NCBI RefSeq assembly: GCF_001618385.1
Contig: NZ_BDCR01000001.1
Span: forward strand, 992,001 to 1,056,000
Direction: 5' to 3'
Origin: Paludibacter jiangxiensis
GTDB lineage: Bacteria; Bacteroidota; Bacteroidia; Bacteroidales; Paludibacteraceae
Length of the DNA stretch: 64,000 bases
Part shown: positions 20,474 to 64,000 of the stretch, in pieces
Layout: the number at the start of each line of letters is the position of its first letter
Numbering within the stretch: the first letter of the stretch is position 1
Notes under the pieces: generated by a model
What the model was told of the DNA's origin: nothing
The model's input: only the letters and a program-made list of their open reading frames with translations
The model's database searches: none
Made by a program: the position numbers and the translations under genes

Positions 20474-20970
20474 TGTTGAATGTAATCCTTTATAATTTTG
20501 ACAATTCGAAGAATATTTTTCTTAGGGTTCATTACTGTCAGCAGGTAAGTCCCGGTTGGAAGATCTACCAGTGAAACAATAGTGTTAGCTGTTTGTATAT
20601 CGTTTTGTGTAATTAATTTTTTGCTGGAGTCATACAACAGGTATTTCAGATCGTTGTAATTGGAGTTCTTGATAGTAAGCGTTACATAGTTCGTAGTCGG
20701 ATTTGGAAATACGACGCAATCGATAGTCAAATCGCTTGATGATGTTTCTCCGGGAATGATGATGCCGGATGTTTTGTCAAAGGCTTGCTGCACTCCCTCT
20801 CCGAATATTATGTCAGACACAGAAATACTTGTATATGATACTTGTCCTAATGTATAGCTTACAGATCCCCCTTTGCCTGAAATGTTTCCACCGGCACTTG
20901 ATGTTGCCTCCTGTGCAAAGAGCGCAAGAGGAAACAGTATAGAGAGAAATATAAATGCAAAAAATCTCAT
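20470..20970 (-). CDS. Small secreted protein with T9SS type A C-terminal sorting domain
   Basis: About 166 residues from the ATG at 20970; a longer reading to 21096 would bury the signal peptide, which begins MRFFAFIFLS and ends LFAQE. Residues ~20-70 form a short beta domain (GGNISGKGGSVSYTLGQVSY, then GEGVQQAF). The C-terminal ~80 residues match the T9SS type A sorting domain: VFPNPTTNYVTL, a middle LYDSSKKLI, LPTGTYLLTV, and a basic tail. This domain sends cargo through the type IX system to the cell surface, where it is normally removed and the cargo anchored. It heads the fibre operon and is stop/start-coupled (ATGA) to the next gene, so it could be the anchor or baseplate for the fibres. 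That role is inferred; the sorting domain is clear. Confidence 0.85.
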   Translation of the reverse strand: MRFFAFIFLSILFPLALFAQEATSSAGGNISGKGGSVSYTLGQVSYTSISVSDIIFGEGVQQAFDKTSGIIIPGETSSSDLTIDCVVFPNPTTNYVTLTIKNSNYNDLKYLLYDSSKKLITQNDIQTANTIVSLVDLPTGTYLLTVMNPKKNILRIVKIIKDYIQQ

Positions 20971-47219: not shown

Positions 47220-48137
47220 ATGAAGCAATTGATTTTTTCATTTTTATTCGTTTTTACCCTTCTGCCATTGGCAAAGGCACAGGATGCTTATCTCTTTGCT
47301 ACATTCCGTGAACCGCAGCAGGATGGTTTGCTTTTGGCCGGTAGTACCGATGGTTACCACTGGCAATCGTTGGGCGGGCCGTTCAATACACCGGGTGTAG
47401 GCACCGACAAAATCATGCGTGATCCTTCTGTTTGTCAGGGTCCCGATGGTACTTTTTACATGGTGTGGACCAGCAGCTGGACGAAGGATAAAGGATTCGG
47501 TTATGCCAGTTCCAAAGATCTGATTCACTGGACTCCATCGAAATACATTGAGGTGATGAAGTACGAACCAACAACGGTAAATACCTGGGCGCCGGAGGTT
47601 TTCTACGACGATGTACACAAGCAGTTTATCATTATGTGGGCATCTACCATTCCTTATCGTTTTGAGAAAGGGCAGGAGGCTGAAGATAACAATCACCGGA
47701 TGTACTACTGCACCACCAAAGATTTCAAAACATTCTCCAAAACAAAACTTTTCCTCGATCCGAAATTCAGTGTGATTGACTGCGTGTTGCTGAAACGTGC
47801 TCCGAAAGATTATGTGCTGATTCTCAAGGATAATACCCGCCCCGAACGTGATGTGAAAGTAGCCTTTGCTAAATCACCTCTGGGTCCGTTTACAACTCCC
47901 TCAGCTGCAATTACTCCTCATTTTACTGAAGGGCCAACTGTGACGAAAGTGGGCAATGACTATTTGGTCTATTTTGAATTTTACAAAGATAAAAAATACG
48001 GAGCCGTAAAAACCCGCGACTTCAAATCGTTTACCGATGCCACAAATGAAGTATCTTTGCCTCAGGGTCATAAACATGGGACGATCTTCAAAGTGTCAGC
48101 GAAGTTTTACGATCAATTGCTTAAGAATCTGAATTAA
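47220..48137 (+). CDS. Glycoside hydrolase family 43-like enzyme
   Basis: 305 residues with a signal peptide (1-20, AKA). A five-bladed beta-propeller of GH43 type. The likely catalytic acidic residues are Asp68 (IMRDPSV), Asp187 (FSVIDCVLL) and Glu237 (FTEGPTVTK), the normal base/modulator/acid order. Blade motifs include GFGYASSKDLIHWTPSK and VAFAKSPLGPFT. It is a single-domain, short member; the Bacteroidota subfamily is perhaps GH43_34, which I cannot confirm. GH43 enzymes of pectin PULs usually remove alpha-L-arabinofuranose or beta-linked galactose/xylose side groups. It follows the DUF6298 gene and precedes the GH143-GH142-like enzyme. Confidence 0.83.
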   Translation: MKQLIFSFLFVFTLLPLAKAQDAYLFATFREPQQDGLLLAGSTDGYHWQSLGGPFNTPGVGTDKIMRDPSVCQGPDGTFYMVWTSSWTKDKGFGYASSKDLIHWTPSKYIEVMKYEPTTVNTWAPEVFYDDVHKQFIIMWASTIPYRFEKGQEAEDNNHRMYYCTTKDFKTFSKTKLFLDPKFSVIDCVLLKRAPKDYVLILKDNTRPERDVKVAFAKSPLGPFTTPSAAITPHFTEGPTVTKVGNDYLVYFEFYKDKKYGAVKTRDFKSFTDATNEVSLPQGHKHGTIFKVSAKFYDQLLKNLN

Positions 48138-51200: not shown

Positions 51201-51542
51201 TACGTGGGCGAATACCTCGACGAGGTAACCGGTTACTGGTTAAAAGGAGATCAGGAACGAAGCCGCTATTATAACCACTCCACTTTCAACGATTTGATTA
51301 TTACCGGACTGGTAGGTCTCCGTCCCCGTGCCGACGAAACCATCGAGGTCAATCCGTTGGTTCCTGCAAAACAGTGGGATTGGTTCTGTTTGGATAACGT
51401 GTCGTATCACGGTAAAACGCTGACCATTGTTTGGGACAAAACCGGAAGCAAATACAACCTTGGTAAAGGATTGATGCTGTTTGTCAACGGTGAGAAAGTG
51501 GCATCGTCCACTCAATTAAAATCGATAGTTTATAAACCGTAA
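48231..51542 (+). CDS. Two-domain RG-II enzyme, GH143-GH142 architecture (Dha hydrolase plus beta-L-arabinofuranosidase)
   Basis: 1103 residues with a signal peptide (1-18). The N-terminal ~400 residues are a sialidase-like beta-propeller with Asp-box-like turns (MNSQDGYNWSEPTV, ISPDGGKTWPVMP, STSDDGLEYKDL). A beta-sandwich follows (about 415-600, VFDRFNSIQEMTKW onward). The C-terminal ~450 residues are an (alpha/alpha)6 barrel (MFYYRWWTLRKHIKQ, DVQDGMEETISGG, GVGKCEWDGAVWPFATSQTL). This order and length match the B. thetaiotaomicron enzyme that founded GH143 and GH142 (BT1020, from memory). In RG-II side chain D, GH142 removes L-Araf from Dha, and GH143 removes Dha from the backbone. The family call rests on architecture, not a search. 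It supports RG-II as the PUL target. Confidence 0.75.
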   Translation: MKQLLFILYIILAINATAQEGVYYTGKTLSNSDYHHGQLAPAVGVHNIQVLRVNREHPANLAEGWTYNHQPMLCYWNNRFYMEYLSDPVGEHEAPGRTLLMNSQDGYNWSEPTVVFPEYKVPDGTTKPDFPGVAKDLMAVMHQRMGFYVSAKNRLLVLGFYGIAFAAKDDPNDGNGIGRVVREVLPNGKFGPIYFIRYNHAFNESNTSYPFYTKSKDKGFVAACNELLANPLMMLQWNEESDRNDPLIPIHKDYKAFNFYHLPDGRVVGLWKFALTTISPDGGKTWPVMPQRGKGFVNSNAKIWGQRTSDGRYATVYNPSEYRWPLAISTSDDGLEYKDLLLVHGDITPMRYGGAYKNLGPQYVRGILEGNGTPPDKNLWVTYSMNKEDLWISRIPVPVTGKATAQADDVFDRFNSIQEMTKWNIYSPLKAPVSLEKRADGKRWLTLKDSDPFDYAKVERVVPESKKLTAEFTVVPGQNGNGQLDIEFQNPKGEACIRLTFDKDSVFKSKSGARYSGILKYKAGETYHVKVMLDVTTRSYKMVVNGKEIATRIFFNPVEAVSRIVFRTGELPIEPTPNTPADRFTDLANPGASDKEAVYYLENFKTSSQDDDNSAAVLKADDFKHYVDNFNTMENENIAQAIPNSESWSWMKKNVPLFECPQQNIEEMFYYRWWTLRKHIKQTPDGYAFTEFLVPRTYADKYNLISSALGHHIYEARWLRDSKYLNDDIHVWYRGNEGKPMRKLRSFSSWTGNALYNKFMVDGDKNFLLDMYPDLQADYAAWEGDHRLPSGLYWQGDVQDGMEETISGGRKKKYARPTINSYMFGNAQALAAIANLKGDKATEKSYLLKADTLKQLVQTQLWNKDSLFFETLREPGKLAQAREAVGFLPWYFNLPDKGKGFEVAWKQLTDTKGFSAPFGLTTAERRHPQFRTHGVGKCEWDGAVWPFATSQTLTALANAKNNYDANVVSDSVYFALINQYVESMHYRGRPYVGEYLDEVTGYWLKGDQERSRYYNHSTFNDLIITGLVGLRPRADETIEVNPLVPAKQWDWFCLDNVSYHGKTLTIVWDKTGSKYNLGKGLMLFVNGEKVASSTQLKSIVYKP

Positions 51543-51602: not shown

Positions 51603-52106
51603 ATGCGTTCAAGATTTTCTATCAAAGCTAAGGTTGAATTATTTGTAATTGTTGCCATAACAATACTTATCCCTTTTTCTATTTCATCAATCTCTGATCC
51701 AACGATGAATGTGGATTCAAAGATAGGGATGGTTCTGAGTTTGATATTTTTTACATTGGTAATAATTTATTACGCTGTTGTTGTTTTCAGATTTAAGTGG
51801 CTTAGATTCTTTATTGATGAGAATAAAATAACATTAAGTCGATATGCAGGACTAAAGAAAGCAACAGAATTTAAATTCTCTTATTTTGATTGCTTTAAGA
51901 CAGCTCACAATACCAGTCGAATAGGTACGTTTGAAAATTTATTATTGATAAAAGATAATAAGGTGATTCTTACAATTTCAGAATTTTATCATGCGAACTA
52001 TAAAGAGATGAAGCGAACAATAAGCAACAACCTTACAGACGAAGGAGATGTTGTTTATGATTTTATGGATGAAATATTAGATATATTGAAAATAAAGAAG
52101 GATTGA
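51603..52106 (+). CDS. Small two-helix membrane protein with PH-like domain, out of place in the PUL
   Basis: 167 residues. Two membrane helices (about residues 12-30 and 40-61) are followed by a cytoplasmic beta-rich domain (FFIDENKITLSRYAGLKKAT, FENLLLIKDNKVILTI) resembling bacterial PH-like (bPH) domains, and a short helix at the end. No signal peptide, no link to sugar use. The gene is clearly richer in A+T than the enzyme genes on both sides and seems to have its own promoter, so it looks like an insertion into the PUL. Its cellular role is unknown. Confidence 0.65.
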   Translation: MRSRFSIKAKVELFVIVAITILIPFSISSISDPTMNVDSKIGMVLSLIFFTLVIIYYAVVVFRFKWLRFFIDENKITLSRYAGLKKATEFKFSYFDCFKTAHNTSRIGTFENLLLIKDNKVILTISEFYHANYKEMKRTISNNLTDEGDVVYDFMDEILDILKIKKD

Positions 52107-52146: not shown

Positions 52147-54897
52147 ATGAGAAAACGAGTATTTATTTGGTTTTTTTGCATTTGTAATTTACTGATAACA
52201 AATATTGCTTCGGCTATCACCGTTTCCAAACTCACTTGTGAGATGGCTGTTAATCCGGTGTCGGTAAATACGACGACACCTCGTTTGGGATGGCAGTTGC
52301 AGTCGGTTGTCAACGGCGATCGACAGACGGCCTACGAATTGGTTGTTACTGCCGAAGCAAGTAAAACCGTTGTTTGGCAAAGCGGGAAGGTAAAATCGGA
52401 TGGCAGTCAGTTGATCGATTATGCCGGTAAGTCTTCGCTTGAAAAAGGGAAAGCATACAGTTGGAAAGTTCGTGTGTGGGACGCCAAAGGCAAAGCTTCG
52501 GCGTGGAGTGCTCCGGCTCGTTTCTCAATAGCGCCTGCCGATGATTTTCTCGATTCCCAATGGATTGGTGGGCTGACCAAGGCCGACTCTCATCTACCGA
52601 TAGGAAAGAGCTATCACATGCCTTCCAAAAAATCGCCCGAGAATATTGCTATGCTCAAAAACCTCGACAGCATGGCGTTGCGCAGCATCATGCTTCGGAA
52701 AGATTTCAAAGCAGAAACATCCGTAAAAAAGGCAACGGTCTATGTCTGCGGACTGGGTCATTATCAGCTATCTATCAATGGAAAGAAAGTTGGGAACAGT
52801 GAGTTTGCGCCACTCTGGAGCGACTATTCAAAGACGGTTTATTACAATACGTACGATGTTTCCGACAGGATTCAAAAGGGTGAAAATGCGATCGGTGTAA
52901 TTCTTGGCAATGGTTTTTACAACACCATTGGCACCCGTTACAGCAAATTGTGGCGCACCTACGGTCCTCCGACCTTGTTTTTCAAAATGGTGGTGGAGTA
53001 TGTTGATGGCAAAAAAGAGATCCTTCGTTCTGATAAAAGCTGGAAGTATGCGCCGAGCCCCATCACGTTCAATAGTATTTATGGCGGCGAGGATTATGAT
53101 GCCACTCTGGAGCAACCGGGCTGGAATATTGCCGGTTTTAACGATTCCAAATGGCGAAATGTTGTGTTGCAGGAGGCTCCGGAAGGGAAACTGACAGCTC
53201 AGACAGCCCCGCAGGTTCAGATCAACAAACAATACGGAATCAAAGAACTGAAGCATCTTTCTGACTCGGTTTATGTGCTCGATATGCGACAAAACCTGTC
53301 GGGTTTCCCGTCCATTAAAATTCATGGTAAAAAAGGACAAACCGTTCGCATGTGGGTGGGCGAATCGCTCGATAAGGACGGAAAGGTAAGCCAGAAACGA
53401 ACCGGTGCACCGTACTATTTTCAGTACACGCTCAAAGGTGGAGGGGAGGAAGAATGGCAACCGATGTTCAGCTATTACGGCTACCAGTATATCCAGGTGG
53501 AAGGTGCCGATGTACAGAAATCCCCGACAGGAAGCACATTGCCGCTGATAACCGACATCAAATCGAATTTTGTCTACTCCTCGGCAACCGAAGTGGCCAC
53601 TTTCGATTGCTCGAACGAGATTTTCAATAAGACGCACTGGTTGATTAACAATGCCATCAAGAGCAATTTTCAGGGCGTGATGACCGATTGTCCGCAGCGC
53701 GAAAAGCTGGGATGGGTAGAAGAGTTGCATCTCAACGGTCCGGGCTTGTTGATGAACTACGACATGACTGCCATGTTCCCGAAAATTTTGCGGGATATGA
53801 GCGATGCCCAGCATGCCGACGGTCTGGTGCCGAGTATTTGTCCCGAGTATGTCTCTTTCGGTGGCGATTTTACCGATTCTCCCGAATGGGGTTGCGCCTC
53901 CATCGTGGTGCCGTGGATGTATTATTGGCATTACGGCGACAGTTCGTTGATACGGACATATTACTCTGTGATGACGCGCTATGTCGACTATCTCGGGACG
54001 AAAGCAACCGGGCATATTTTGTCGCATGGCTTGGGCGACTGGTACGATTACGGGTTGAAACCGGCAGGATATTCACAGAACAGTTCCATCGCAATTTCGG
54101 CTACGTCACATTATTACCTCTCGGCAATGCTGGTAGCCAAAGCTGCTGCGATGCTGGGTATTGCGCAGGATACACTCAAATACGAACAGTTGGTTCGTGA
54201 CATTAAGAAATCTTACAACGAACGTTTTTTCAATAAATCGACCCGGCAATACGACATCGGTAGCCAGTTCGCCAACGCTGTCTCTTTGTACCTCGGTTTG
54301 GTGGAACCGCAATACCGTCAGGCTGTTTTGAAAAACCTTACCGATGACATCGCTTATCACGACGATCGTCTTACGACCGGCGATGTGGGCAATCGTTACC
54401 TTTTCCAAACATTGGCCGATAACGGACAGAACGAACTGATGTACAAAATGGTGAATCACTACGATGCTCCGGGTTATGGTTTTCAGTTGAAATATGGACT
54501 GACTACGCTGACCGAACAGTGGGATCCACGCAAGGGTAATTCGTGGAACCACTTTATGATGGGGCAAATCGAGGAGTGGTTCTTCAATACGCTGGCTGGA
54601 ATTCGTTACGATGAAAAACAACCCGGGTTCAAGCATATTATTTTGCGACCGACACCGGTAGGCGATCTAAAAAATGTATCGGCTTTAACCGAAACGCTTT
54701 ATGGAAAACTATTCGTTGCATGGACAAAGACAGAAAAGGAATTCAATCTGAATGTGACAATTCCGGTCAATACAACAACGACGGTGATGTTGCCTTTTAC
54801 TGCGACTTCGGTACGAATTAACGGTAAAACAGTGGCTGTGAAAGATAATTCAGTCGAACTGGGTTCGGGGAAATGGGAGATTACAATTGAATTCTAA
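52147..54897 (+). CDS. Alpha-L-rhamnosidase, GH78
   Basis: 916 residues with a signal peptide (about 1-22). Domains in order: an FN3-like N-terminal sandwich (about 25-130, AYELVVTAEASKTVVW), a Bac_rhamnosid_N carbohydrate-binding sandwich (about 180-370), a second sandwich, the (alpha/alpha)6 catalytic barrel (about 485-830) and a C-terminal sandwich. The catalytic motif MTDCPQREKLGWVEE (about residues 510-524) carries the conserved Asp and general-acid Glu. Inverting hydrolysis of alpha-L-rhamnosides is expected in the periplasm. In RG-II the target could be Rha-Kdo of side chain C or Rha in chains A/B; in RG-I, backbone ends. The linkage cannot be read from sequence. Confidence 0.92.
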   Translation: MRKRVFIWFFCICNLLITNIASAITVSKLTCEMAVNPVSVNTTTPRLGWQLQSVVNGDRQTAYELVVTAEASKTVVWQSGKVKSDGSQLIDYAGKSSLEKGKAYSWKVRVWDAKGKASAWSAPARFSIAPADDFLDSQWIGGLTKADSHLPIGKSYHMPSKKSPENIAMLKNLDSMALRSIMLRKDFKAETSVKKATVYVCGLGHYQLSINGKKVGNSEFAPLWSDYSKTVYYNTYDVSDRIQKGENAIGVILGNGFYNTIGTRYSKLWRTYGPPTLFFKMVVEYVDGKKEILRSDKSWKYAPSPITFNSIYGGEDYDATLEQPGWNIAGFNDSKWRNVVLQEAPEGKLTAQTAPQVQINKQYGIKELKHLSDSVYVLDMRQNLSGFPSIKIHGKKGQTVRMWVGESLDKDGKVSQKRTGAPYYFQYTLKGGGEEEWQPMFSYYGYQYIQVEGADVQKSPTGSTLPLITDIKSNFVYSSATEVATFDCSNEIFNKTHWLINNAIKSNFQGVMTDCPQREKLGWVEELHLNGPGLLMNYDMTAMFPKILRDMSDAQHADGLVPSICPEYVSFGGDFTDSPEWGCASIVVPWMYYWHYGDSSLIRTYYSVMTRYVDYLGTKATGHILSHGLGDWYDYGLKPAGYSQNSSIAISATSHYYLSAMLVAKAAAMLGIAQDTLKYEQLVRDIKKSYNERFFNKSTRQYDIGSQFANAVSLYLGLVEPQYRQAVLKNLTDDIAYHDDRLTTGDVGNRYLFQTLADNGQNELMYKMVNHYDAPGYGFQLKYGLTTLTEQWDPRKGNSWNHFMMGQIEEWFFNTLAGIRYDEKQPGFKHIILRPTPVGDLKNVSALTETLYGKLFVAWTKTEKEFNLNVTIPVNTTTTVMLPFTATSVRINGKTVAVKDNSVELGSGKWEITIEF

Positions 54898-54944: not shown

Positions 54945-55586
54945 ATGCTAAGCAAAGAATTGCAATCTATTTTAGCTGAAACTAAAGGCGAAGGAGAGAT
55001 CTCATCCTTTTTAGCTCACAATCCCAATTTGATAAGATGGGCTGTTTGTAGAACAGGAGGTCATAGTACCTATGTTTTAAAAGAATTTCCGTTTGGATCA
55101 AAATATAAGGCTGATTTTGTTGTCCCGATGTCATATTCAGGTGCATGGGAAGTTAATATCATTGAACTTGAACCGCCTGATGATATAGTAATTACAAAAG
55201 AAGGACTTCCTTCGAATCGTTTGAACAAGGCAATTTCCCAAATAAATGATTGGAAAGAATATATTGCGAGAAACCCTTTGGAGTTTCGCATGGATTTATC
55301 TAATTGGTGTATAAAAAAAGATTTACTGGGATTTTTTAATGACAAGAAAACGCCTACTAATAATACTGGTGATTTACTTAATTCTCCAGAGACGGCAATT
55401 TTTTATAACTACTACATTTTTATAGGGAATAGAGAAAATGTTGATAATGAAAAGCGTAGGAGGGTTAATCAATTGCGTAATGAGATAGAAATTTTCACTT
55501 ATGGTAGATTTTTGGATATTGCAAAAAATTTTGATAAGGCAGAAATGAATCCAAATGAAACTATTTTTTTTACGCGACTCAGATGA
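54945..55586 (+). CDS. Shedu/PD-(D/E)XK nuclease-like protein inside the PUL
   Basis: 213 residues, cytoplasmic, A+T-rich. SSFLAHNPNLIRWA near the start, then GSKYKADFVV (Asp57) and NIIELEPPDD (Glu74, Glu76), then LNKAISQINDWKEYI, form the D...ExE...Q pattern of the Shedu (SduA/DUF4263) branch of restriction-endonuclease-like folds. SduA proteins are anti-phage nucleases. This one is short and has little beyond the nuclease domain, so it may be a minimal or partial version. It lies 47 bp after GH78 and 62 bp before the second aldolase, all on the same strand, with no metabolic logic for its place. Fold call fairly likely; defence role is inference. Confidence 0.65.
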   Translation: MLSKELQSILAETKGEGEISSFLAHNPNLIRWAVCRTGGHSTYVLKEFPFGSKYKADFVVPMSYSGAWEVNIIELEPPDDIVITKEGLPSNRLNKAISQINDWKEYIARNPLEFRMDLSNWCIKKDLLGFFNDKKTPTNNTGDLLNSPETAIFYNYYIFIGNRENVDNEKRRRVNQLRNEIEIFTYGRFLDIAKNFDKAEMNPNETIFFTRLR

Positions 55587-55648: not shown

Positions 55649-56554
55649 ATGCAAAAAAGATTTTCAGGTGTAGTGGTGCCGATGATTACACCGCTCAAAA
55701 AAGACTTTACGGTAGATGTGGACGCGGTTGCCGTTATTATGAAACGTTTTGCCCAATATGGCATTCATCCTCTGGTTTTGGGAACAACCGGCGAATCAAG
55801 TTCAGTAGATGAAAAAGAGAGCCTTCGTTTTGTAGAGGCCGCTGTCAAGGCAAAGAGTCCCGGACAGTGTGTGTATGCCGGTTTGGTAGGCAATCAGGTA
55901 GCCGAACTGATCAAACGAGGCAATCAGTTTATCGAACTGGGTGCCGATGTGGTCGTGGCTACATTGCCTTCGTATTACATCCTTACGCCGGATCAGATGG
56001 TGACATTTTATACGCAGTTGGCCGACAATGTGAAAGGGCCGGTGATGATGTACAACATCAAAGCTACCACGCAGATGTCTATTCCTTTGGACGTGGTTGC
56101 CAAACTGAGCAATCACCCCAATATCTGGGGCTTGAAGGATTCGGAACGTGATGCCGATCGCATGAAAGCATGCATCGAGGCCTATATGGAGAGAGCAGAT
56201 TTCGCTTATTTCTGTGGCTGGGGAGCACAAAGCTTCGGCAGTTTGCAATTGGGTGCCGACGGCGTGGTACCGAGTACCGGAAACATCGTGCCTGAACTGT
56301 ACGGTAAACTGATGGATGCTGCGAAAGTTGGCGATTGGAAAACGACTCAACATTATCAGGAGCTGACCGATAAGGTAGGTGCAGTTTACCAGAAAGATCG
56401 TACGTTGGGCGAATCGCTGGCTTCGTTGAAGGTGTTGATGAACCATGAGGGCATTTGCGGTACTACGATGATGCCTCCGTTGACAGAGCTGACTGCCGAA
56501 CGTAATCAGCAGATTATCGACAGTTTCGAAGCATTGAAAAAAGAATTGAAATAA
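55649..56554 (+). CDS. DHDPS/NAL-family pyruvate-type class I aldolase (second; proposed Dha aldolase)
   Basis: 301 residues, TIM barrel, cytoplasmic. LGTTGESSSVD binds the pyruvate end; Tyr135 lies in MMYNIKATTQ and the Schiff-base Lys163 in WGLKDSERD, 28 residues later. The usual YNxP proline is replaced (YNIK), and the segment after Lys163 (SERDADR) is richer in charge than in the first aldolase (SSANG). This would suit a different, more acidic acceptor half. It heads a tight cassette with a symporter (9 bp gap), an Fe-type alcohol dehydrogenase, PdxA2 and a DUF1537 kinase. I propose it splits Dha into pyruvate and a four-carbon aldehyde acid. Alternatives: a 2-keto-3-deoxy-aldonate aldolase or Kdo aldolase. 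Fold firm, substrate inferred. Confidence 0.82.
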   Translation: MQKRFSGVVVPMITPLKKDFTVDVDAVAVIMKRFAQYGIHPLVLGTTGESSSVDEKESLRFVEAAVKAKSPGQCVYAGLVGNQVAELIKRGNQFIELGADVVVATLPSYYILTPDQMVTFYTQLADNVKGPVMMYNIKATTQMSIPLDVVAKLSNHPNIWGLKDSERDADRMKACIEAYMERADFAYFCGWGAQSFGSLQLGADGVVPSTGNIVPELYGKLMDAAKVGDWKTTQHYQELTDKVGAVYQKDRTLGESLASLKVLMNHEGICGTTMMPPLTELTAERNQQIIDSFEALKKELK

Positions 56555-56563
56555 CACGGATAA

Positions 56564-58105
56564 ATGAACCAGGAACCTATTCATTGGATTGATGGACTGA
56601 TTGTTGCTGCCTCGGTGGTATTTACAATCGGTACCGGATTTTATTTTGCGCGACGTCAGAAGAGTTCGGATCGTTATTTTTCGGGAAGTAAAAATATTCC
56701 TTCCTGGGCGATTGGTATCTCCATCTTTGCCACGTTGTTGAGCAGTGTTACATTTTTGGCCTATCCGGCAGCGGCCTATAAGTCGAACTGGATATTACTG
56801 GTGCAGGGTCTGATGGTGCCGGTGGTACTGGTCGGCCTGATCGGATTTATCGTGCCGCTGTTCAGAAAAGCAATTAAATTAAGTACGTACGAATATTTTG
56901 AACGTCGTTTCGGCGTGTTTGCCCGTATGTACAGTTCCGTAGCGTTTTTGCTGACCCACTTTTCGAAGATGGGAACGGTACTTTACCTGGTCAGTATTGC
57001 GCTGAGCAGTTTCACCCATTTCCCGGTGCTGACCGTGATGCTGGTGCTTTCCATCGCAATTATCACCCTGACGGTTTTGGGCGGAATGGAAGCCGTAATC
57101 TGGATGGACGTGATTCAGGGAGGTCTGTTGATTGGTGGCGGATTGCTCTGTCTGGGAATCCTCTTGTTCCGTCCCGAAGGCGGACCAACAGTGGCTTTGA
57201 GTCAGGCTTTCCAAGTGGGAAAGATTGATGTCGGACCGTTCAATTTCAGCTTTTCCGAGCTCACTTTTTGGGTAATGGTAGTTAACGGAGCCTTTTATGC
57301 GCTGCAAAAATATGGTACCGATCAAACCATCGTGCAACGTTATCTGGCTGCAAAATCCGACAAAGACGCGAAACATGCGGCGTTGATCGGGGTGATTATG
57401 AGTGTGGCTGTCTGGACATTGTTTATGTTGATCGGTTCGTTGCTGTATGTCTATTATCACAACGGAACGGCAACATTGCCCGAAGGCATTTCGGCCGATA
57501 AGGTTTTCCCTCTTTTTATCAGTACACAGTTGCCGGTAGGCGCTGTTGGCTTGGTACTGGCTGCATTGGTTGCTGCTGCACTTGCCAGTTTGCAATCCGA
57601 TCTGAACTGTATCTCGGCTATTGGAATCGCCGACTATTATCTCCGTTTTAAGCCTAATAGCACGGATAAACAGCAGTTGCGGATGGGGCGGATTTTGGTG
57701 TTGGTTGCCGGTATCCTGATGATGACGGTTGCTTACCTTTACGTTACCTGGGAAGGCGAAGGCGTCCTCGGGGTTGTCTTTGGATTGTATGCCATCTTCT
57801 CGGCCGGTATCGTGGGAATCTTTCTGTTGGGATTGCTCTCCCGTCGTGCTAACTGGCAGGGTTTGTACATCGGAATTGCGGTATGTATTCTGTTTACCGC
57901 TTATGCTGTGCTGACAACAACTAAAATCGACGATACGCCGATTCTCGATCTGGGAAAATTCAATTTCCCGCATCACAAATATATGTTGGGTGTTTATAGC
58001 CACATCATCGTGTTGGTGGTGGGTTACATTGCCAGCCTGTTCTTCAAATCGGAACCGGCAGACGAACACCTGACCATTTATGGGTATATTAAAAGCAAAA
58101 AATAA
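56564..58105 (+). CDS. Sodium:solute symporter (SSS family)
   Basis: 513 residues with about 13 membrane helices, normal for the family. The start IDGLIVAASVVFTIGTGFYF, then ARRQKSSDRYFSGSKNIPSW (typical after helix 1), TLLSSVTFLAYPAAAYKSNW, and the conserved GGMEAVIWMDVIQGGLLIGG, ALQKYGTDQTIVQRYLAAK and ALVAAALASLQSDLNCISAI motifs are all present. It moves an organic solute (sugar or sugar acid) inward with sodium across the inner membrane. It lies 9 bp after the second aldolase and in front of the alcohol dehydrogenase, so its cargo is probably the acid that this aldolase uses. Relatives in Bacteroidota uptake loci often carry sialic acid or uronates. Confidence 0.93.
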   Translation: MNQEPIHWIDGLIVAASVVFTIGTGFYFARRQKSSDRYFSGSKNIPSWAIGISIFATLLSSVTFLAYPAAAYKSNWILLVQGLMVPVVLVGLIGFIVPLFRKAIKLSTYEYFERRFGVFARMYSSVAFLLTHFSKMGTVLYLVSIALSSFTHFPVLTVMLVLSIAIITLTVLGGMEAVIWMDVIQGGLLIGGGLLCLGILLFRPEGGPTVALSQAFQVGKIDVGPFNFSFSELTFWVMVVNGAFYALQKYGTDQTIVQRYLAAKSDKDAKHAALIGVIMSVAVWTLFMLIGSLLYVYYHNGTATLPEGISADKVFPLFISTQLPVGAVGLVLAALVAAALASLQSDLNCISAIGIADYYLRFKPNSTDKQQLRMGRILVLVAGILMMTVAYLYVTWEGEGVLGVVFGLYAIFSAGIVGIFLLGLLSRRANWQGLYIGIAVCILFTAYAVLTTTKIDDTPILDLGKFNFPHHKYMLGVYSHIIVLVVGYIASLFFKSEPADEHLTIYGYIKSKK

Positions 58106-58114
58106 CAGTTACAG

Positions 58115-58189
58115 GTTTAATGTTCAATGTTTCAAGTTGAAAGTTGTTGAAAACATTGAACATTAAACATTAAACATTGAACATTGAAA
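58115..58189 (+). repeat. 18-bp inverted repeat plus heptanucleotide array before the alcohol dehydrogenase gene
   Basis: GTTTAATGTTCAATGTTT (58115-58132) is the exact reverse complement of 58151-58168, with an 18-nt loop. The right arm continues as five tandem ACATTRA heptamers (about 58153-58187) up to the ATG at 58189. The transcript would form a strong hairpin just before the start codon. Confidence 0.85.
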
Positions 58190-59337
58190 TGAATTCTGTA
58201 GTTTTACAACAACCGGGAACCATTGTTTTCGGCGAAGATAGCATACAACAACTGGCCGAATGCCGGTTTATCACATCATCCGAGCAAATATTAATGTTGG
58301 TTGCCACTCCTCTTTTAGAGGCGCTGGCACCTTCTGTTGAGGCTATTAAAGCTTCCGGCAAAAAGGTGGAATTGGTGGAATATAACTTTCCCGGAGAACC
58401 TACCTTTGCACAATTCGATACATTACTGGCAATTTCGGAAAAGTTCAACCCCGATTGCATTATCGGCGTAGGAGGCGGTAGCGTTCTCGATTGCTCAAAA
58501 TTGTTGGCGGCACTTACCGGCAATACTCAAAAACTGGCGGAAGTAGTAGGTATTGGTATTCTTAATGGCCGTAACCGTAAACTGATCTGCGTGCCGACTA
58601 CATCGGGAACCGGCAGCGAAATGTCGCCCAATGCCATTTTGCTCAACGAAGCAACTTTGGCAAAAAGCGGTATCATTAGTCCGTATCTGGTTCCGGATGC
58701 CTGCTTTATCGATCCGGCGTTGACGGTGTCTCTTCCGGCAAAACTGACTGCCGAAACGGGTATGGATGCTCTTTCGCATTGCATCGAGGCATTTACCAAT
58801 AAATTTGCCCATCCGGCAGTCGATACGTATGCATTGAAAGGAATTGAGCTGATAGCGGCAAACCTTCAACGTGCCTGCGAAAACGGCAAGGACATGGAAG
58901 CCCGTGCCGCTTTGGCGCTGGGATCGATGTACGGAGGCTTGTGTCTGGGGCCGGTCAATACTTCGGCTATCCATGCTTTGTCGTATGGTTTGGGAGGTAA
59001 ATTCCATGTACCGCATGGCCTGGCCAATGCCATACTGATGCCCGAAGTCTTGCGATTCAACAGGATTGCGTCTCCGGCTCGTCATGCGCAGCTTGCACTG
59101 GCGTTGGGCGTAGAAAAACAATCGACTGATGAGGCTACAGCGTTGGCAGGTATCGAAAAGATTGCCGCTATATCAAAAGCATGCGGCATTCCGCAACATC
59201 TGACAGAGATTGGTATCGGTAAAGAAGACTTGTCGGAACTGGCTGATATTGCCATGAACGTCACCCGATTGCTGAAGAACAATCCGCGTGAAGTGACCAA
59301 AGCGGATGCAATAGAAATTTATACGAAACTATTATAA
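58189..59337 (+). CDS. Iron-containing (group III) alcohol dehydrogenase (proposed aldehyde-acid reductase)
   Basis: 382 residues from ATG 58189; an in-frame TTG at 58177 lies inside the heptamer array and is less likely. The nucleotide site is GVGGGSVLDCSK (about residue 93) with CVPTTSGTGSEMSP. All four metal ligands are present: Asp193 and His197 (GMDALSHCIEAF), His262 (AIHALSYGLGG) and His276 (FHVPHGLANA), with spacing as in lactaldehyde reductase FucO. The family interconverts alcohols and aldehydes with NAD(P)H. In this cassette it would reduce the four-carbon aldehyde acid released by the aldolase to D-threonate. That role is inferred; other sugar-derived aldehydes are possible. Confidence 0.9.
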   Translation: MNSVVLQQPGTIVFGEDSIQQLAECRFITSSEQILMLVATPLLEALAPSVEAIKASGKKVELVEYNFPGEPTFAQFDTLLAISEKFNPDCIIGVGGGSVLDCSKLLAALTGNTQKLAEVVGIGILNGRNRKLICVPTTSGTGSEMSPNAILLNEATLAKSGIISPYLVPDACFIDPALTVSLPAKLTAETGMDALSHCIEAFTNKFAHPAVDTYALKGIELIAANLQRACENGKDMEARAALALGSMYGGLCLGPVNTSAIHALSYGLGGKFHVPHGLANAILMPEVLRFNRIASPARHAQLALALGVEKQSTDEATALAGIEKIAAISKACGIPQHLTEIGIGKEDLSELADIAMNVTRLLKNNPREVTKADAIEIYTKLL

Positions 59338-59340
59338 CGT

Positions 59341-59420
59341 GTAATCGTTGAATCGAATAATCGTTAAATCGCGAAACAGCAGATTGACGATTAAACGATC
59401 AACAATTGAACAATTAAACA
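59341..59420 (+). repeat. Inverted short-word repeats between the alcohol dehydrogenase and pdxA2 genes
   Basis: The left half (59341-59371) repeats words of the type AATCGTTRAATCG. The right half (59382-59419) carries the same words on the other strand (CGATTAAACGAT, CAATTGAACAATTAAAC). The arms ATCGTTAAATCG and CGATTAAACGAT pair with one mismatch. Same design as the spacer at 58115 but different words. Confidence 0.7.
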
Positions 59421-59428
59421 AAGGTTTT

Positions 59429-60457
59429 ATGACCCCGATTATAGGAATTAGCATGGGCGATCCCGCCGGGATTGGTCCTGAAATATGTATCAAAGCGCTA
59501 TCGGATGCGACTGTTTACGAACGTTGCCGTCCGGTGGTGATTGGTGATGCGGCTGTGATGGCGCAGGCTGCCACGCTGTTGAATGCTCCGCTCAAGGTAA
59601 ATGCAATCGAAAAGATTGCCGATGCAACCTTTGCTTTCGGCACGGTGGACGTGTACGATCTGAAGAACGTTACTCTTTCGGAACTCAAGCCGGGTGAAGT
59701 GTCGGCTATGGCGGGGAATGCCGCTTTTGAGGCCGTGCATAAGGTGATTGAGCTGGCTTTGGCCAACGAAGTGGATGCTACGGTTACGGCTCCTATCAAC
59801 AAAGAGTCGATTCACAAGGCAGGGCACCATTTTTCGGGACATACCGAAATTTATGCTCATTATACCAATACAGCAAAATATGCCATGTTGCTGGCCGATG
59901 ATAACCTGCGCGTGATTCATGCCACTACGCACGTTTCGCTTCGTCAGGCGTGTGATTTGTGCAAGAAAGAACGTGTGCTGGAGGTTATCTCATTGTTGAA
60001 CGATGCGTGTGTGCAGTTTGGTTATGAAAAGCCGCGTATCGCTGTGGCGGGCCTCAATCCGCATGCCGGCGAAAACGGGCTGTTTGGAGACGAAGAAATC
60101 AACGAAATAATACCCGCCATCAAAGAGGCGAATGCCAAAGGCTACAATGTGGAAGGCCCGATTCCTCCCGACACTATTTTTGTGAAAGCCGTTCAGGGAA
60201 AATATGACGGTTGCGTGGTGATGTACCACGACCAGGGGCATATTCCTTTCAAACTGGAAGGTTTTCAGTGGGACAACGAAAAGCAAACCATGAAAAGCGT
60301 GAAGGGTGTGAATATTACCCTTGGTTTGCCGATCATCCGTACCTCGGTCGATCATGGTACGGCGTTTGAAATTGCAGGCAAGGGCATTGCTTCGCCTGAC
60401 GCCATGCTGGTAGCTTTGGATTATGCAATCTTGATGGCTAAAAACAGAACAAAATGA
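59429..60457 (+). CDS. pdxA2: PdxA2-type 4-phospho-D-threonate/D-erythronate dehydrogenase
   Basis: 342 residues from ATG 59429; an upstream in-frame TTG falls inside the spacer repeats. PdxA-fold motifs: GISMGDPAGIGPEICIKAL at the start, VTAPINKESIHKAG, GHHFSGHTEIYAHYTNT (His138), VIHATTHVSLRQ (His168), GLNPHAGENGLFGDEE and VMYHDQGHIPFK (His267), which supply the metal site. PdxA itself acts in vitamin B6 synthesis, but the pairing with a DUF1537 kinase marks PdxA2, which oxidises 4-phospho-D-threonate or -erythronate and loses CO2 to give dihydroxyacetone phosphate. Its last codons overlap the kinase gene by 4 bp (ATGA), so the two are translated together. Confidence 0.88.
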   Translation: MTPIIGISMGDPAGIGPEICIKALSDATVYERCRPVVIGDAAVMAQAATLLNAPLKVNAIEKIADATFAFGTVDVYDLKNVTLSELKPGEVSAMAGNAAFEAVHKVIELALANEVDATVTAPINKESIHKAGHHFSGHTEIYAHYTNTAKYAMLLADDNLRVIHATTHVSLRQACDLCKKERVLEVISLLNDACVQFGYEKPRIAVAGLNPHAGENGLFGDEEINEIIPAIKEANAKGYNVEGPIPPDTIFVKAVQGKYDGCVVMYHDQGHIPFKLEGFQWDNEKQTMKSVKGVNITLGLPIIRTSVDHGTAFEIAGKGIASPDAMLVALDYAILMAKNRTK

Positions 60458-61632
60458 TAACGGTAATTGCAGACGACTTGACGGGTGCCGCCGAAATAGC
60501 CGGTGTATGCCTTCGCTACGGACTCAAAGTGGCTTTCGGGCTCGACTCTGTTCCCGAAGAGCCGGCCGATGTGGTAGTAATTGCTACCGATAGCCGGTCG
60601 GGCACAATCGATGGAGCCTATCGTATTCACCGCCTGATGGCAACAAAAGCGTCGACATCAGACGATACGCTTATTTTCAAGAAGGTGGATTCCGTGCTGC
60701 GAGGGTATATCGTGCAGGAAATCAAAGCTGTGATGTCGGTAACGGGTAAATCGAAAGTTTTACTTCAGCCGGCAAACCCTGCGGCAGGTCGTTGCATCCG
60801 TGATGGAAAATATTTTGTGGGAGATACATTGCTGGAAGAGACCGGTTTTTCTGCCGATCCTGATTTTCCGGCAGGAACCTCAGAGGTGGCTGAGCTCTTG
60901 AATGAAAGAGCCCTGGTGGGAGATAAGGCCAACCAGTTTCCAATCATTACCGGCGATGTTCGGGAGTTTCAGGAAAAGGCAATCTATCTTCCTGATTGCA
61001 GTTCTGAAAACGAACTCGGATTGCCTCTTGCAAATTGGGAGCCGGATACATTGCTGGCCGGAAGTGCCGCATTTTTTGAGCAGGTGTTGCTCAGGATTAC
61101 TGGAGCAAAGAAGGCAGTGGCAAACAAATCGATAGATATTTCGTCCTCTTTTCTTATCGTTTGCGGAACAGCGCACCCTCAGGGACAGCGATTTCTCGAA
61201 CGTCTTAAGACCGAAGCCGGTTGTCCGATTCGTTATTTTCCGTCACAATTCTTGCAGGAAAAAATCTCGGAAGGCGAATTTTCACGTTGGGCAAAATCTT
61301 TGATTCCCGACTGGAAATGGAGCAATAAAATGGCGATTTCCGTTTCTCAGTCTAAGGTCTCGTTTCCGGGAAGCTCTTCTTTGTTGCGTTTGCGCATGGA
61401 TGAGGTGGTTGCCGAACTGGTGAAGAATTGTCCGGTGCAGGAGTTGTTGATCGAAGGAGGAGCAACTGCTTACAGTGTACTGAATTACCTGAAGTGGAAA
61501 ACGCTGATTCCCGAACAGGAACTCGAACCCGGCGTTGTGCGTATGCGGGTAGGACGGAAGCCTTCACTGTATCTCACCATCAAACCGGGAAGCTATTCCT
61601 GGCCGTCGGGAATTGCGGGAATCAAAAACTAA
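60454..61632 (+). CDS. Four-carbon acid sugar kinase (DUF1537 family)
   Basis: 392 residues, a little shorter than the usual ~420. The N-terminal sugar-binding domain has VIADDLTGAAEIAGVC, IATDSRSG and FKKVDSVLRGYIVQE. The C-terminal nucleotide-binding domain has LIVCGTAHPQGQRFLE and LLIEGGATAYSVLNYL. DUF1537 enzymes phosphorylate D-threonate, D-erythronate, L-threonate or related acids at O4. The 4-bp overlap with pdxA2 argues for D-threonate or D-erythronate, since L-threonate clusters normally use other partners. The product would pass straight to PdxA2. Within an RG-II PUL the threonate would come from Dha (inference). The next gene starts 47 bp on, behind a TTGAA-rich spacer. Confidence 0.87.
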   Translation: MITVIADDLTGAAEIAGVCLRYGLKVAFGLDSVPEEPADVVVIATDSRSGTIDGAYRIHRLMATKASTSDDTLIFKKVDSVLRGYIVQEIKAVMSVTGKSKVLLQPANPAAGRCIRDGKYFVGDTLLEETGFSADPDFPAGTSEVAELLNERALVGDKANQFPIITGDVREFQEKAIYLPDCSSENELGLPLANWEPDTLLAGSAAFFEQVLLRITGAKKAVANKSIDISSSFLIVCGTAHPQGQRFLERLKTEAGCPIRYFPSQFLQEKISEGEFSRWAKSLIPDWKWSNKMAISVSQSKVSFPGSSSLLRLRMDEVVAELVKNCPVQELLIEGGATAYSVLNYLKWKTLIPEQELEPGVVRMRVGRKPSLYLTIKPGSYSWPSGIAGIKN

Positions 61633-61679: not shown

Positions 61680-63266
61680 ATGAAAAAACTATTGACAATT
61701 TGCCTGTTGGCCTTGTCTGTGCAATGGGCTGTTGCCGAGGTTGTAGACATGCAGAAAGCCGGTGCCGTAGCAGATGGTAAAACCTTGAATACGGCTGTGA
61801 TTAAGAAAACCATCGATCGGTTGTCGGCTCATGGCGGCGGAACGCTCTTCTTTCCGGCAGGAACCTATCTGACCGGTCCCATTGTGTTGAAAAGCAATAT
61901 TACCATAGATATAGAATCGGGAGCAACAATCCAATTTTCAACAAACTACGACGATTATCTTCCTTTTGTCGAAATGCGTTACGAAGGGGTGGTGATGAAG
62001 AGTTTTTCTCCGCTGTTTTATGCTTACGGTCAGGAGAATATCACTATCAAAGGACGTGGTAAAATCGACGGAAACGGACAGGCGTGGTGGAATGCCGTTT
62101 GGGCGCTTGAAGGTGCCAAAAAAGATGAGGCGCTGGCAGCCCGCGTGCAAAAATACCGTGCGCTTTGGGATAAAGAAAATCCTGATTTCCAGATTGAAGC
62201 TAATTCCGATTGGAAAGGAACGCTGGCAAAGAAATTCTTCCGTCCGTCGTTTATCCAGTTTTACAAAAGCAAAGATATTCGCATCGAGGGGATTACGTTG
62301 GTCAACTCTCCTTTTTGGACCGTCAATCCCGAGTTTTGCGAAAATGTGACGGTCGATGGTATTACCATCAATAACCCATATTCTCCCAATACCGACGGAA
62401 TCAACCCGTCGTCGTGCAAAAATGTACACATTGCCAACTGTCATATCAGCGTGGGCGACGACTGCATCACCATCAAATCGGGTCGCGATGCGCAGGGTCG
62501 CAAATACGGAGTCCCCTGCGAAAACGTTACTGTGACTAATTGCACCATGCTGGCCGGTCATGGCGGAGTGGTTATCGGCAGCGAGATGTCGGGCAGCGTG
62601 CGCAAAGTGACCATCTCTAACTGCGTGTTCGACGGTACCGACCGGGGCATCCGCATCAAATCGGTTCGTGGTCGTGGTGGCTATGTGGAAGAAGTGCGGG
62701 TGAACAATATTGTGATGAAAGACATTAAAAAAGAGGCAATTGTGCTGAGTTTGTTCTACGGAAAAGCTCCGCTCGAACCGCTTTCCGAACGTACTCCTAT
62801 CTTCCGGAATATCCATATTTCGGGAATGACCGGTAGTAATGTAAATGCTGCATGTTTGGTAGAGGGAATCGAGGAGATGCCGGTGTCGGATGTCTCATTC
62901 GAAGATATCAACATGGATGCACAGAGTGGTTTTGATATTAGTCGTGCAAAAGATATCCGACTGAGCAATGTGAAGGTAAATGCTCAGATGGGAGCTGCAT
63001 TTAAGCTTTCGGATGTGTCGAATGCTTACCTTAGCAATGTTTCTACGTTGAAACCTATTGCCGATAAATCGGTGATCGAAGCCACCAATGTCTCCGACCT
63101 GTTTATCACCGGCTGTTTTCCACAGGCAGGTAGCCGTTCGTTCCTGTCGCTGAACGGAGAAAAGAGTAACAATATCATCTTGTCGGGCAATTATCTGATT
63201 CGGGTTACGAATCCGGTTGAAAGACAGGAAGATTTGAACAAGAATGTCGTTATCGTTGAAAAATAA
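61680..63266 (+). CDS. Glycoside hydrolase family 28 (polygalacturonase-like)
   Basis: 528 residues with a signal peptide (1-19, AVAE). A right-handed beta-helix with all GH28 catalytic motifs: NTDGIN (about residue 237), GDDCITIKSG (about 258, the two catalytic Asp), AGHGGVVIGSE (about 293) and RIKSVRGRGG (about 323). It starts with the usual GAVADGKTLNTAVIKKTID. It would hydrolyse alpha-1,4-linked galacturonic acid, exo-acting more likely than endo given the insertion at about residues 140-180 and the Bacteroidota context. It follows the kinase by 47 bp and precedes the esterase by 9 bp. In the PUL it would trim the galacturonan backbone left after RG-II side chains are removed. Confidence 0.93.
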   Translation: MKKLLTICLLALSVQWAVAEVVDMQKAGAVADGKTLNTAVIKKTIDRLSAHGGGTLFFPAGTYLTGPIVLKSNITIDIESGATIQFSTNYDDYLPFVEMRYEGVVMKSFSPLFYAYGQENITIKGRGKIDGNGQAWWNAVWALEGAKKDEALAARVQKYRALWDKENPDFQIEANSDWKGTLAKKFFRPSFIQFYKSKDIRIEGITLVNSPFWTVNPEFCENVTVDGITINNPYSPNTDGINPSSCKNVHIANCHISVGDDCITIKSGRDAQGRKYGVPCENVTVTNCTMLAGHGGVVIGSEMSGSVRKVTISNCVFDGTDRGIRIKSVRGRGGYVEEVRVNNIVMKDIKKEAIVLSLFYGKAPLEPLSERTPIFRNIHISGMTGSNVNAACLVEGIEEMPVSDVSFEDINMDAQSGFDISRAKDIRLSNVKVNAQMGAAFKLSDVSNAYLSNVSTLKPIADKSVIEATNVSDLFITGCFPQAGSRSFLSLNGEKSNNIILSGNYLIRVTNPVERQEDLNKNVVIVEK

Positions 63267-63275
63267 AAGATAGAA

Positions 63276-64000
63276 ATGAAAAAATTACTGACAGCATTTT
63301 TGGTGCTTCTGTTTGCAGCACCGCTTTTTGCCCAAACAGCCGACGAAGGCTACAGTCGTCCGTTGGCAGATGTACTGCAATCGATCGAAAAGCAGTTTCA
63401 TATTCAGTTCAAGTACGACAAAAAAATGATCGATGGCAAGCAATTGCAGGGTGCCGACTGGCGTATTCGTCCCTGGAGCCTCGAAAAAACATTACAGGCA
63501 GTGCTCTCCCCGTTCGATTACACTTATGTGATGGATCATGGCAAGTACAAAGTTAAAGCGTACGAGTATGCCCGCACCACCGATGAAGAGGGGAAGGAGT
63601 TTCTCGATTATCTGAAAACACTTTACAACGATAAAGATAGTTGGGAAAAACGGAAAGCCGAGCTGAAATCGTGTATGCGTGAGGCGTTGCGTTTCCCGGC
63701 GCTGGTTCCGGCCAAGCCCGATTCGAAGGTTATTCTCACGCCGAAGCGGAAATACGACGGTTACACGGTCGAAAATTTTGCCATCGAAACACTTCCGAGC
63801 GTTTATGTGTGCGGATCAATCTATAAACCGCTAAAGATGAAGGGTAAATGCCCCGTTATGCTCAATCCGAACGGTCACTTTGGTGACGGACGTTACCGTG
63901 CCGATCAGCAAAAACGTTGTGCCATGGAGGCTCGTATGGGAATTATTGCTGCCGACTGGGATCTCTTTGCCTGGGGTGAAAGCCTTTTGCAATTCGATGG
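63276..64000 (+). CDS. Secreted STN-domain plus alpha/beta-hydrolase (acetylxylan-esterase-like) protein, cut by the right edge
   Basis: About 241 codons are visible from ATG 63276; the 3' end is outside. A signal peptide (1-20, PLFAQ) is followed by an STN-like domain at about residues 26-90 (RPLADVLQSIEKQFHIQFKY, SLEKTLQAVLSPFDYTYV), as in secretins and TonB receptors. The rest begins an esterase-type alpha/beta hydrolase (VYVCGSIYKPLKMKGKCPVM, LNPNGHFGDGRYRADQQKRC, MGIIAADWDLFAWGES). The nucleophile Ser motif would lie past the edge. Pectic esters (acetyl or methyl) are the likely target, as the gene is 9 bp after GH28. The STN fusion is unusual for a soluble esterase and may serve binding. 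Confidence 0.75.
   Translation, partial: MKKLLTAFLVLLFAAPLFAQTADEGYSRPLADVLQSIEKQFHIQFKYDKKMIDGKQLQGADWRIRPWSLEKTLQAVLSPFDYTYVMDHGKYKVKAYEYARTTDEEGKEFLDYLKTLYNDKDSWEKRKAELKSCMREALRFPALVPAKPDSKVILTPKRKYDGYTVENFAIETLPSVYVCGSIYKPLKMKGKCPVMLNPNGHFGDGRYRADQQKRCAMEARMGIIAADWDLFAWGESLLQFD

Follow-up and report, generated by a model that had tools for sequence, protein, structure and literature searches.

The cassette and its locus

Within a 64,000-nucleotide stretch of the Paludibacter jiangxiensis genome (contig NZ_BDCR01000001.1, positions 992,001 to 1,056,000; the window), five adjacent genes at 55649-61632 form a cassette that we read, with a probability of about 0.8, as a catabolic pathway for 3-deoxy-D-lyxo-2-heptulosaric acid (Dha), a sugar among the rarest of the plant cell wall. 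An earlier sequence-only reading had placed five genes of these families in a row on one strand. An open reading frame (ORF) check and a Pfam scan of the window bear this out, all five ORFs being open and on the + strand. They encode a class-I pyruvate aldolase of the N-acetylneuraminate lyase/dihydrodipicolinate synthase (NAL/DHDPS) superfamily, the proposed Dha aldolase (55649-56554; PF00701, 1.1e-40); a sodium:solute symporter of the SSS family, the proposed Dha importer (56564-58105; PF00474, 1.6e-37; TIGR00813 above cut-off); an iron-type alcohol dehydrogenase (Fe-ADH), the proposed D-threuronate reductase (58189-59337; PF00465, 7.4e-34, and PF25137 (ADH_Fe_C), 9e-55); a PdxA2-type dehydrogenase, the proposed decarboxylating D-threonate 4-phosphate dehydrogenase (59429-60457; PF04166, 9.8e-111); and a DUF1537 four-carbon acid-sugar kinase, the proposed D-threonate kinase (60454-61632; PF07005 (SBD_N), 2.9e-33, and PF17042 (NBD_C), 1.2e-6). 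The overlap seen earlier between the last two genes is real, with the PdxA ORF (59348-60457) and the kinase ORF (60454-61632) sharing 4 bases. The likely starts of Fe-ADH and PdxA are the ATG codons at 58189 and 59429. They are preferred to the TTG codons of the ORF list (58177 and 59348) because the latter fall in AT-rich intergenic stretches, at 58106-58188 before Fe-ADH, with imperfect inverted repeats, and at 59338-59428 before PdxA.

The cassette lies in a longer locus that starts at about 31991 with a GntR regulator. Behind the regulator sits a second DHDPS-family aldolase (ALD2; 33050-33988, + strand; PF00701, 4.1e-61), perhaps for 3-deoxy-D-manno-octulosonic acid (Kdo), followed by a DUF4992 protein, SusC-like and SusD-like proteins, a 560-aa protein, and DUF3826 and DUF6298 proteins. 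Then come an arabinosidase-like enzyme of glycoside hydrolase family 43 (GH43; 47220-48137, + strand; PF04616, PF22847), a BT_1020-like protein of GH143-GH142 type (48231-51542, + strand; PF24067, 2.4e-121; PF22585; PF22422), a small ORF (51603-52106) and a GH78 rhamnosidase (52147-54897, + strand; PF17389, 4.7e-100). A further ORF at 54945-55586 between GH78 and the cassette has similarity to SduA_C (Shedu-type), odd company for a sugar locus. Directly 3' of the cassette are a GH28 galacturonidase-like enzyme (61680-63266, + strand; PF00295, 1.3e-47) and the start of an ORF that runs off the window (63276-63998, + strand), with no Pfam match. The sequence-only reading was right to place a GH143-GH142-like enzyme upstream and to name the five families; three ORFs separate that enzyme from the cassette, and ALD2 had been overlooked.

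By Pfam, the BT_1020-like protein consists of a BT_1020-like propeller (PF24067), a carbohydrate-binding module and a C-terminal MGH1-like hydrolase domain (PF22422); we take the propeller to be GH143 and the hydrolase domain GH142. The order GH43-GH143/142-GH78 recurs in four other loci (L048, L057, L059, L061). The last ORF of the window is presumably esterase-like, as judged from its position and assumed synteny with BT1017, and its homologues come after GH28 in L053, L055, L061, L071, L072 and L079.

Family assignment of the cassette proteins

No NCBIfam equivalog scores above its cut-off for the cassette aldolase, and its score against dapA (TIGR00674; 137.7 vs 206.15) leaves it outside DapA (4-hydroxy-tetrahydrodipicolinate synthase). 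Residues K163, T46 and T47 are present in 53/53 cassette aldolases and Y135 in 52/53 (alignment A5), and a larger 73-row alignment, one row of which (L083) is an ALD2 copy, agrees with this. In NAL/DHDPS class-I aldolases these positions supply the Schiff-base lysine, the catalytic tyrosine and the Thr-Thr carboxylate motif. The AlphaFold2 model (mean predicted local distance difference test score, pLDDT, 96.4) has the (beta/alpha)8 fold of the superfamily, to which all 50 fold matches listed from the PDB belong (query template-modelling (TM) score 0.85-0.92). Near the active site, cassette aldolases carry A/G192 and A193 (52/53 each) and R167 (49/53, N in the other four), and three ALD2 sequences have E-E at the 192-193 positions and A at that of R167. 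In NAL, D191 and E192 hold the polyol tail. By analogy, the residue pattern suggests that the substrate of the cassette aldolase ends in a carboxylate and that ALD2 takes a polyol, for example Kdo. Homologues of ALD2 lie near cassette genes in L082, L083 and L185. Another is found near GH143 in L058, where an SSS gene is its neighbour and a BNR-repeat protein is encoded a few genes away.

The closest PDB sequence matches of the window PdxA are 2hi1 (314 bits), 6e85 (310) and 4jqp (303), followed by 1ps6 (205); 6e85 is named D-threonate 4-phosphate dehydrogenase and 4jqp PdxA. This ranking favours the PdxA2 type over biosynthetic PdxA, but the NCBIfam models rank the other way: it scores 356 against PRK03371 (D-threonate 4-phosphate dehydrogenase; cut-off 583) and 395 against PRK03743 (PdxA; cut-off 470). 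The catalytic histidines of PdxA, H168, H212 and H267, are invariant in a 10-row alignment, and a second, divergent PdxA is located elsewhere in the genome. The kinase exceeds both Pfam cut-offs (SBD_N 116 bits vs 25; NBD_C 29.6 vs 28.3). Its model (pLDDT 92.5) gives eight PDB fold matches at E <= 0.001 (TM 0.47-0.78), all of them DUF1537-family chains that a sequence comparison finds too. Six are titled DUF1537 and two, the 3dqq chains, putative tRNA synthase; the latter also match the window kinase by sequence. Fe-ADH carries both its N- and C-terminal domains (PF00465, PF25137).

Conservation of the cassette as a unit

A profile built from nine cassette aldolases was run against named genomes, and the best 80 of at least 578 confirmed candidate loci were kept. 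Aldolase, PdxA and DUF1537 kinase occur together in 64/80 (full loci), with the SSS symporter in 64/64, Fe-ADH in 59/64 and hence all five genes in 59 of these 64. In the other 16 the aldolase is accompanied by at most three of the remaining four genes, in some by none; many, not all (L129 and L142 being exceptions), are at contig ends. Among the record titles are Paludibacter, Prevotella, Alistipes, Phocaeicola, Echinicola, Anditalea, Belliella, Pleomorphovibrio, Niastella and Xylanibacter, and two metagenome-assembled genomes (MAGs) are labelled Bacillota and Paenibacillus (L123, L137). The closest named relatives among the best 80 loci are from a Bacteroidota MAG (L071) and a Paludibacter MAG (L072).

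The gene order aldolase-SSS-(FeADH)-PdxA-kinase is found in 62/64 full loci. The order FeADH-aldolase-PdxA-kinase-SSS is found in the other two (Niastella, L122 and L133), in G006, G064 and G606, and, as far as its contig extends, in G282. Surroundings vary as well. The cassette stands between GH78 and GH28 in the window, L071 and L072; between GH142 and GH28 in L053, L055 and L079; and after GH78 or GH143 with GH28 upstream in L084, L085, L093 and L147. In the two Niastella loci (L122, L133) it follows a GH78-like gene, and in G064 and probably G006 it is flanked by a LacI regulator and SusC. Most Prevotella-type loci have no GH143 close to the cassette. The grouping is more than chance because the same cassette recurs in other Bacteroidota, and the two gene orders and several insertion positions point to function.

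Two further ideas about these loci were dropped. In L118 and L124 the Fe-ADH, PdxA and DUF1537 proteins are 90-94% identical, beside a 49-52% aldolase, to the best of several queries (window, L047 and L052 versions), which is not identity to the window. A mosaic origin by recent swap with the window was abandoned when DNA comparison gave only short 65-70% matches. A fucose-isomerase/FGGY pair as stand-in for an absent Fe-ADH was rejected, as neither gene turns up in the DNA examined for L090, L136 and L139. Near the cassette aldolase of L107 (5302-9982), and also in L086, L087, L096, L097 and L101, a GlpK-like FGGY kinase is accompanied by a fucose-isomerase-like ORF and a 582-aa protein with no Pfam match; in some Prevotella-type genomes these may form a D-arabinose branch for Kdo.

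Association with GH143

GH143 was scored throughout as the BT_1020-like propeller (PF24067), a strong match having E < 1e-80. Four genome sets, which overlap in part, were compared, and the P-values take no account of relatedness. Among 295 genomes of the window's order, PF24067 is found in 19. The 15 strong matches were counted, the weak ones (G008, G014, G195, G291) being dropped; in two of the 15 (G022, G176) the sole GH143 is of a divergent type with a single domain, about 40-45% identical. PF07005 is found in 14/295, and every DUF1537 place was fetched. The cassette is present in 9/295 (G000, G006, G064, G108, G111, G208, G211, G219 and G282, under seven family labels), although in G282, on a contig of 4.1 kb, Fe-ADH and SSS are truncated at the contig ends. 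All nine are among the 15 strong GH143 genomes (Fisher p 1.2e-13), and 0/280 genomes lacking strong GH143 carry the cassette. The DUF1537 genes of G014, G118, G223 and G228 have no cassette gene alongside; these, together with extra copies in G208 and G211, are of a second, non-cassette type. G176 has a kinase-PdxA pair only. Cassette and GH143 share a contig in G000, G064, G108 and G208. The cassette starts less than 1.2 kb from GH142 in G108 and G208, and about 4 kb after GH142 in the window; in G064 it precedes GH143 by about 15 kb, both being on one strand.

Of the 64 named full loci, 50 were tested for PF24067 at the same threshold (those outside the 50 being L071, L091, L095, L104, L109, L118, L131, L134, L139, L141, L143, L145, L148 and L149; the L109 genome is the L108 genome). 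PF24067 is carried by 49/50 of the cassette genomes, though where there is just one match, it may in some cases be to the divergent form. GH143 lies inside the fetched locus in 8/64. Six loci (L064, L065, L066, L068, L217, L218) encode a GH143-like protein of the divergent, single-domain kind, with about 40-45% identity to that of the window, and neither GH142 nor cassette genes were found in their fetched DNA; the substrate of this protein may differ. In a genome with GH143 and no cassette (G133, locus L057), the genes after GH78 were considered as an equivalent and rejected. They encode an aldo-keto reductase, an amidohydrolase, a major facilitator superfamily transporter and a zinc-type alcohol dehydrogenase, and would be more like a rhamnose/fucose route.

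In 200 genomes of the Prevotella-type genus GH143 occurs in 68, DUF1537 in 38 and both in 36 (p 1.8e-18); these counts are of DUF1537, not of full cassettes, and ten of the GH143 genomes are also in the named set. Nine of 16 loci fetched (L185-L189, L191-L194) have the cassette or most of it. In one (L195, from G447) a cassette-type kinase is the sole cassette gene on a contig of 6.6 kb. The remaining six (L181-L184, L190, L196) hold a second-type DUF1537 kinase outside any cassette, and several of their genomes have two DUF1537 genes. When ten GH143-positive, DUF1537-negative genomes were probed with the aldolase profile, one (G386) had a cassette-type aldolase, two (G353, G374) had an aldolase of ALD2-like score and seven gave only DapA-level matches. 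Among 148 genomes of the order of Echinicola, strong GH143 is found in 10 (G544 and G583 with only the divergent type; a weak match in G585 was dropped) and DUF1537 in 7. The full cassette is confined to G304, which is the L084 genome and also in the named set, and G606, both GH143-positive. No cassette gene lies within 1.5 kb of the other DUF1537 places of this order, and the loci of its GH143 genomes without a cassette gave no match to cassette genes.

The cassette is thus near-exclusive to GH143 genomes, with G302, G507 and G509 as exceptions. The expectation of the sequence-only reading that the cassette would accompany GH143 across genomes survives this comparison (9/9, 49/50 and 2/2 cassette genomes, and 36/38 DUF1537 genomes of the Prevotella-type genus) in one direction, cassette genomes being nearly always GH143-positive. 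The many GH143 genomes that lack the cassette had not been foreseen.

A proposed route for Dha

The observations are the gene content, the protein families, an aldolase with its catalytic residues in place, a gene set conserved together and its near-restriction to genomes with GH143. GH143 with GH142 would free Dha and L-arabinose (L-arabinofuranose) from rhamnogalacturonan II (RG-II), and the SSS protein would bring Dha into the cell. The class-I aldolase would split Dha between C3 and C4 into pyruvate and D-threuronate, a four-carbon aldehyde acid, which Fe-ADH would reduce to D-threonate. The DUF1537 kinase would then form D-threonate 4-phosphate, and PdxA2 would oxidise its C3, with loss of CO2, to give dihydroxyacetone phosphate (DHAP). 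That the pathway is complete is a prediction, as are the substrates of the enzymes, the order of the steps and the transport of Dha by the symporter.

The stereochemistry, claimed earlier and re-derived by hand with the same result, agrees with this route. The D-lyxo configuration has C4 left, C5 left and C6 right; splitting at C3-C4 leaves CHO-C5(L)-C6(R)-COOH, and after reduction of the aldehyde and a turn of the projection by 180 degrees this reads COOH-C2(L)-C3(R)-CH2OH, which is D-threonate. By the same exercise Kdo would yield D-arabinose, and apiose no pyruvate. A pyruvate aldolase together with a four-carbon acid-sugar kinase and PdxA2 requires a C7 2-keto-3-deoxy diacid as substrate. 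Dha is the only such compound in the list of RG-II sugars excerpted from PMC6353982. The chemistry of the cassette fits Dha alone among RG-II sugars.

The cassette parts belong to known families; within the reach of searches of the open-licence literature, both the way they are combined and the substrate are new. As the sequence-only reading had supposed, no described Dha breakdown pathway was found there, nor, among the listed open-licence papers naming Dha in full, any title on its breakdown. We consider it likely, a shade less so than the assignment to Dha itself, that this is the first complete Dha pathway: a five-gene module that would make pyruvate and D-threuronate from a C7 ulosaric acid, join the D-threonate route, and have entered RG-II loci as one block, at several positions and in several Bacteroidota lineages, with the sister aldolase ALD2 and, in some Prevotella, the isomerase-kinase pair perhaps handling Kdo.

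RG-II is a highly complex plant polysaccharide, and the fate of the Dha released from it was not found in the literature searched. If the proposal is true, the pathway fills a gap in the carbon flow of gut, rumen and soil, D-threonate gains an origin in plant cell walls, and functions are suggested for five vaguely annotated genes in many Bacteroidota. Its enzymes could also be used to make or measure Dha, a compound that lacks standards according to PMC12168206.

Alternative explanations

Several findings weigh against assignment of the cassette to Dha. Among cassette proteins only the general models sss (200 vs 184) and pdxA (363.6 vs 290) pass NCBIfam cut-offs, and the best kinase model, NF047819 (D-threonate kinase), gives 111.6 bits over residues 2-155 against a cut-off of 450. 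A local Fe-ADH is missing from 5/64 full loci (L090, L095, L107, L136, L139). Cassette and GH143 are on different contigs in 5/9 genomes of the window's order (G006, G111, G211, G219, G282), and 56/64 named full loci have no GH143 in the DNA fetched, so that close physical linkage is the exception. Cassette genes occur with no detectable GH143 in a 2.5-Mb Dysgonamonadaceae MAG (G302) and in G507 and G509 of the Prevotella-type genus. Conversely, GH143 occurs without the cassette in 6/15 strong genomes of the window's order and 8/10 of the order of Echinicola, and without DUF1537 in 32/68 of the Prevotella-type genus; as GH143 is common without the cassette, the use of Dha has to be optional unless there are other routes. 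In G509 a single aldolase scores above DapA level; it is of ALD2 type and stands beside Fe-ADH, PdxA and kinase genes. ALD2 may therefore act in the same route, which speaks against a clean split of roles between the two aldolases. ALD2 is a possible Kdo aldolase that in G509 may stand in for the cassette aldolase. RG-II genes also travel together, and therefore co-occurrence by itself leaves room for Kdo.

That Kdo is the main substrate of the cassette, or of its aldolase and symporter (giving pyruvate and D-arabinose), while the tetronate genes serve something else appears improbable. Kdo and Dha share one polymer, RG-II, according to excerpts of PMC12282258 and PMC12168206. The fucose-isomerase-like ORF and FGGY kinase upstream of the aldolase in Prevotella-type L086, L087, L096, L097 and L107 could handle D-arabinose (the isomerase alone is seen in L088 and L095). 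Kdo, however, yields no four-carbon acid for DUF1537 and PdxA2, which are in 64/64 full loci (by definition) in the same order with the aldolase, and the window locus has in ALD2 an aldolase whose E-E pair would suit a polyol tail by analogy with NAL, an argument that G509 weakens. Just as improbable is that the cassette degrades another 2-keto-3-deoxy diacid, or D-threonate of other origin, and that its tie to RG-II reflects a plant-matter lifestyle. NAL/DHDPS-superfamily aldolases are promiscuous, and the three genomes with cassette genes and no detectable GH143 would suit such a substrate; against it stand the 280 genomes of the window's order that have neither strong GH143 nor the cassette, 32 of them with an apiosidase, and the insertion of the cassette inside GH143 loci in several lineages.

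Those 32 genomes come from a control with the apiosidase family PF13204 (strong at E < 1e-45, in 46/295 genomes; 67 at 1e-3), in which the cassette is present in 9/14 GH143-positive and 0/32 GH143-negative strong apiosidase genomes (p 1.8e-6). The control sets GH143 apart from RG-II use at large, but only in part, because PF13204 is wider than true apiosidases. It led to the rejection of apiose, another RG-II sugar, as cassette substrate. A DUF1537-family kinase takes part in the known apionate route, and genes of the apiosidase family are found some 5 kb upstream of the L083 cassette and in the RG-II locus of G064. The lack of pyruvate from apiose, and C3 of apionate being a tertiary alcohol that a PdxA-type enzyme should not be able to oxidise, add to the count of 0/32 in making this very improbable. 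Hardly credible is a chance grouping around a vitamin B6 gene. PdxA2 is able to catalyse the PdxA reaction, according to an excerpt of PMC9997740; yet a second PdxA exists elsewhere in the genome, the window copy is nearer 2hi1/6e85, and chance was rejected on recurrence of the group in 64/80 loci.

Other features of the window

On the - strand, 2-21096 holds very large ORFs of 1161 to more than 2300 aa. Among those scanned (7005-11510, 16988-20473 and the small 20470-21096), some have repeats resembling those of tail fibres, a Peptidase_S74 domain and a Por secretion tail.

Comparison with known systems

The D-threonate pathway of DUF1537 kinase and PdxA2 was reportedly established by Zhang et al. 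in 2016. The window likewise has an adjoining kinase and PdxA2-type enzyme that would make DHAP and CO2 from D-threonate. It differs in adding a pyruvate aldolase and Fe-ADH in an RG-II-type locus, so that D-threonate would be an intermediate and not a nutrient, and in its kinase, which is divergent and, at 392 aa, falls short of the 418-422 positions of the models. In the glucarate/galactarate route, an aldolase, tartronate semialdehyde reductase and glycerate kinase act in turn. Both there and in the proposed route a 2-keto-3-deoxy diacid gives pyruvate and a semialdehyde acid, which is then reduced and phosphorylated; the proposed route would start from C7 and not C6 and end in oxidative decarboxylation, and GarL/GarR/GarK are replaced by an NAL/DHDPS-type aldolase, Fe-ADH and a DUF1537 kinase.

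Breakdown of RG-II by gut bacteria is said to have been worked out by Ndeh et al. in 2017. GH43, BT_1020-like, GH78, GH28 and a further ORF follow in the window in what we take to be the order of Bacteroides thetaiotaomicron, where BT1019 and BT1020 presumably belong with BT1017, BT1018 and BT1021; the window differs in having the cassette between GH78 and GH28. A Bacteroides control genome, Bacteroides ihuae, has PF24067 and no PF07005 match. BT1017, BT1018 and BT1021 are named as RG-II genes in an excerpt of PMC7939467. With the NAL/DHDPS class-I aldolases (4xky, YagE, 5c54, NanA) the cassette aldolase shares the fold, Schiff-base lysine, tyrosine and TTGE motif; its subgroup is set apart by A/G-A and R167, where the three ALD2 sequences have E-E and A.

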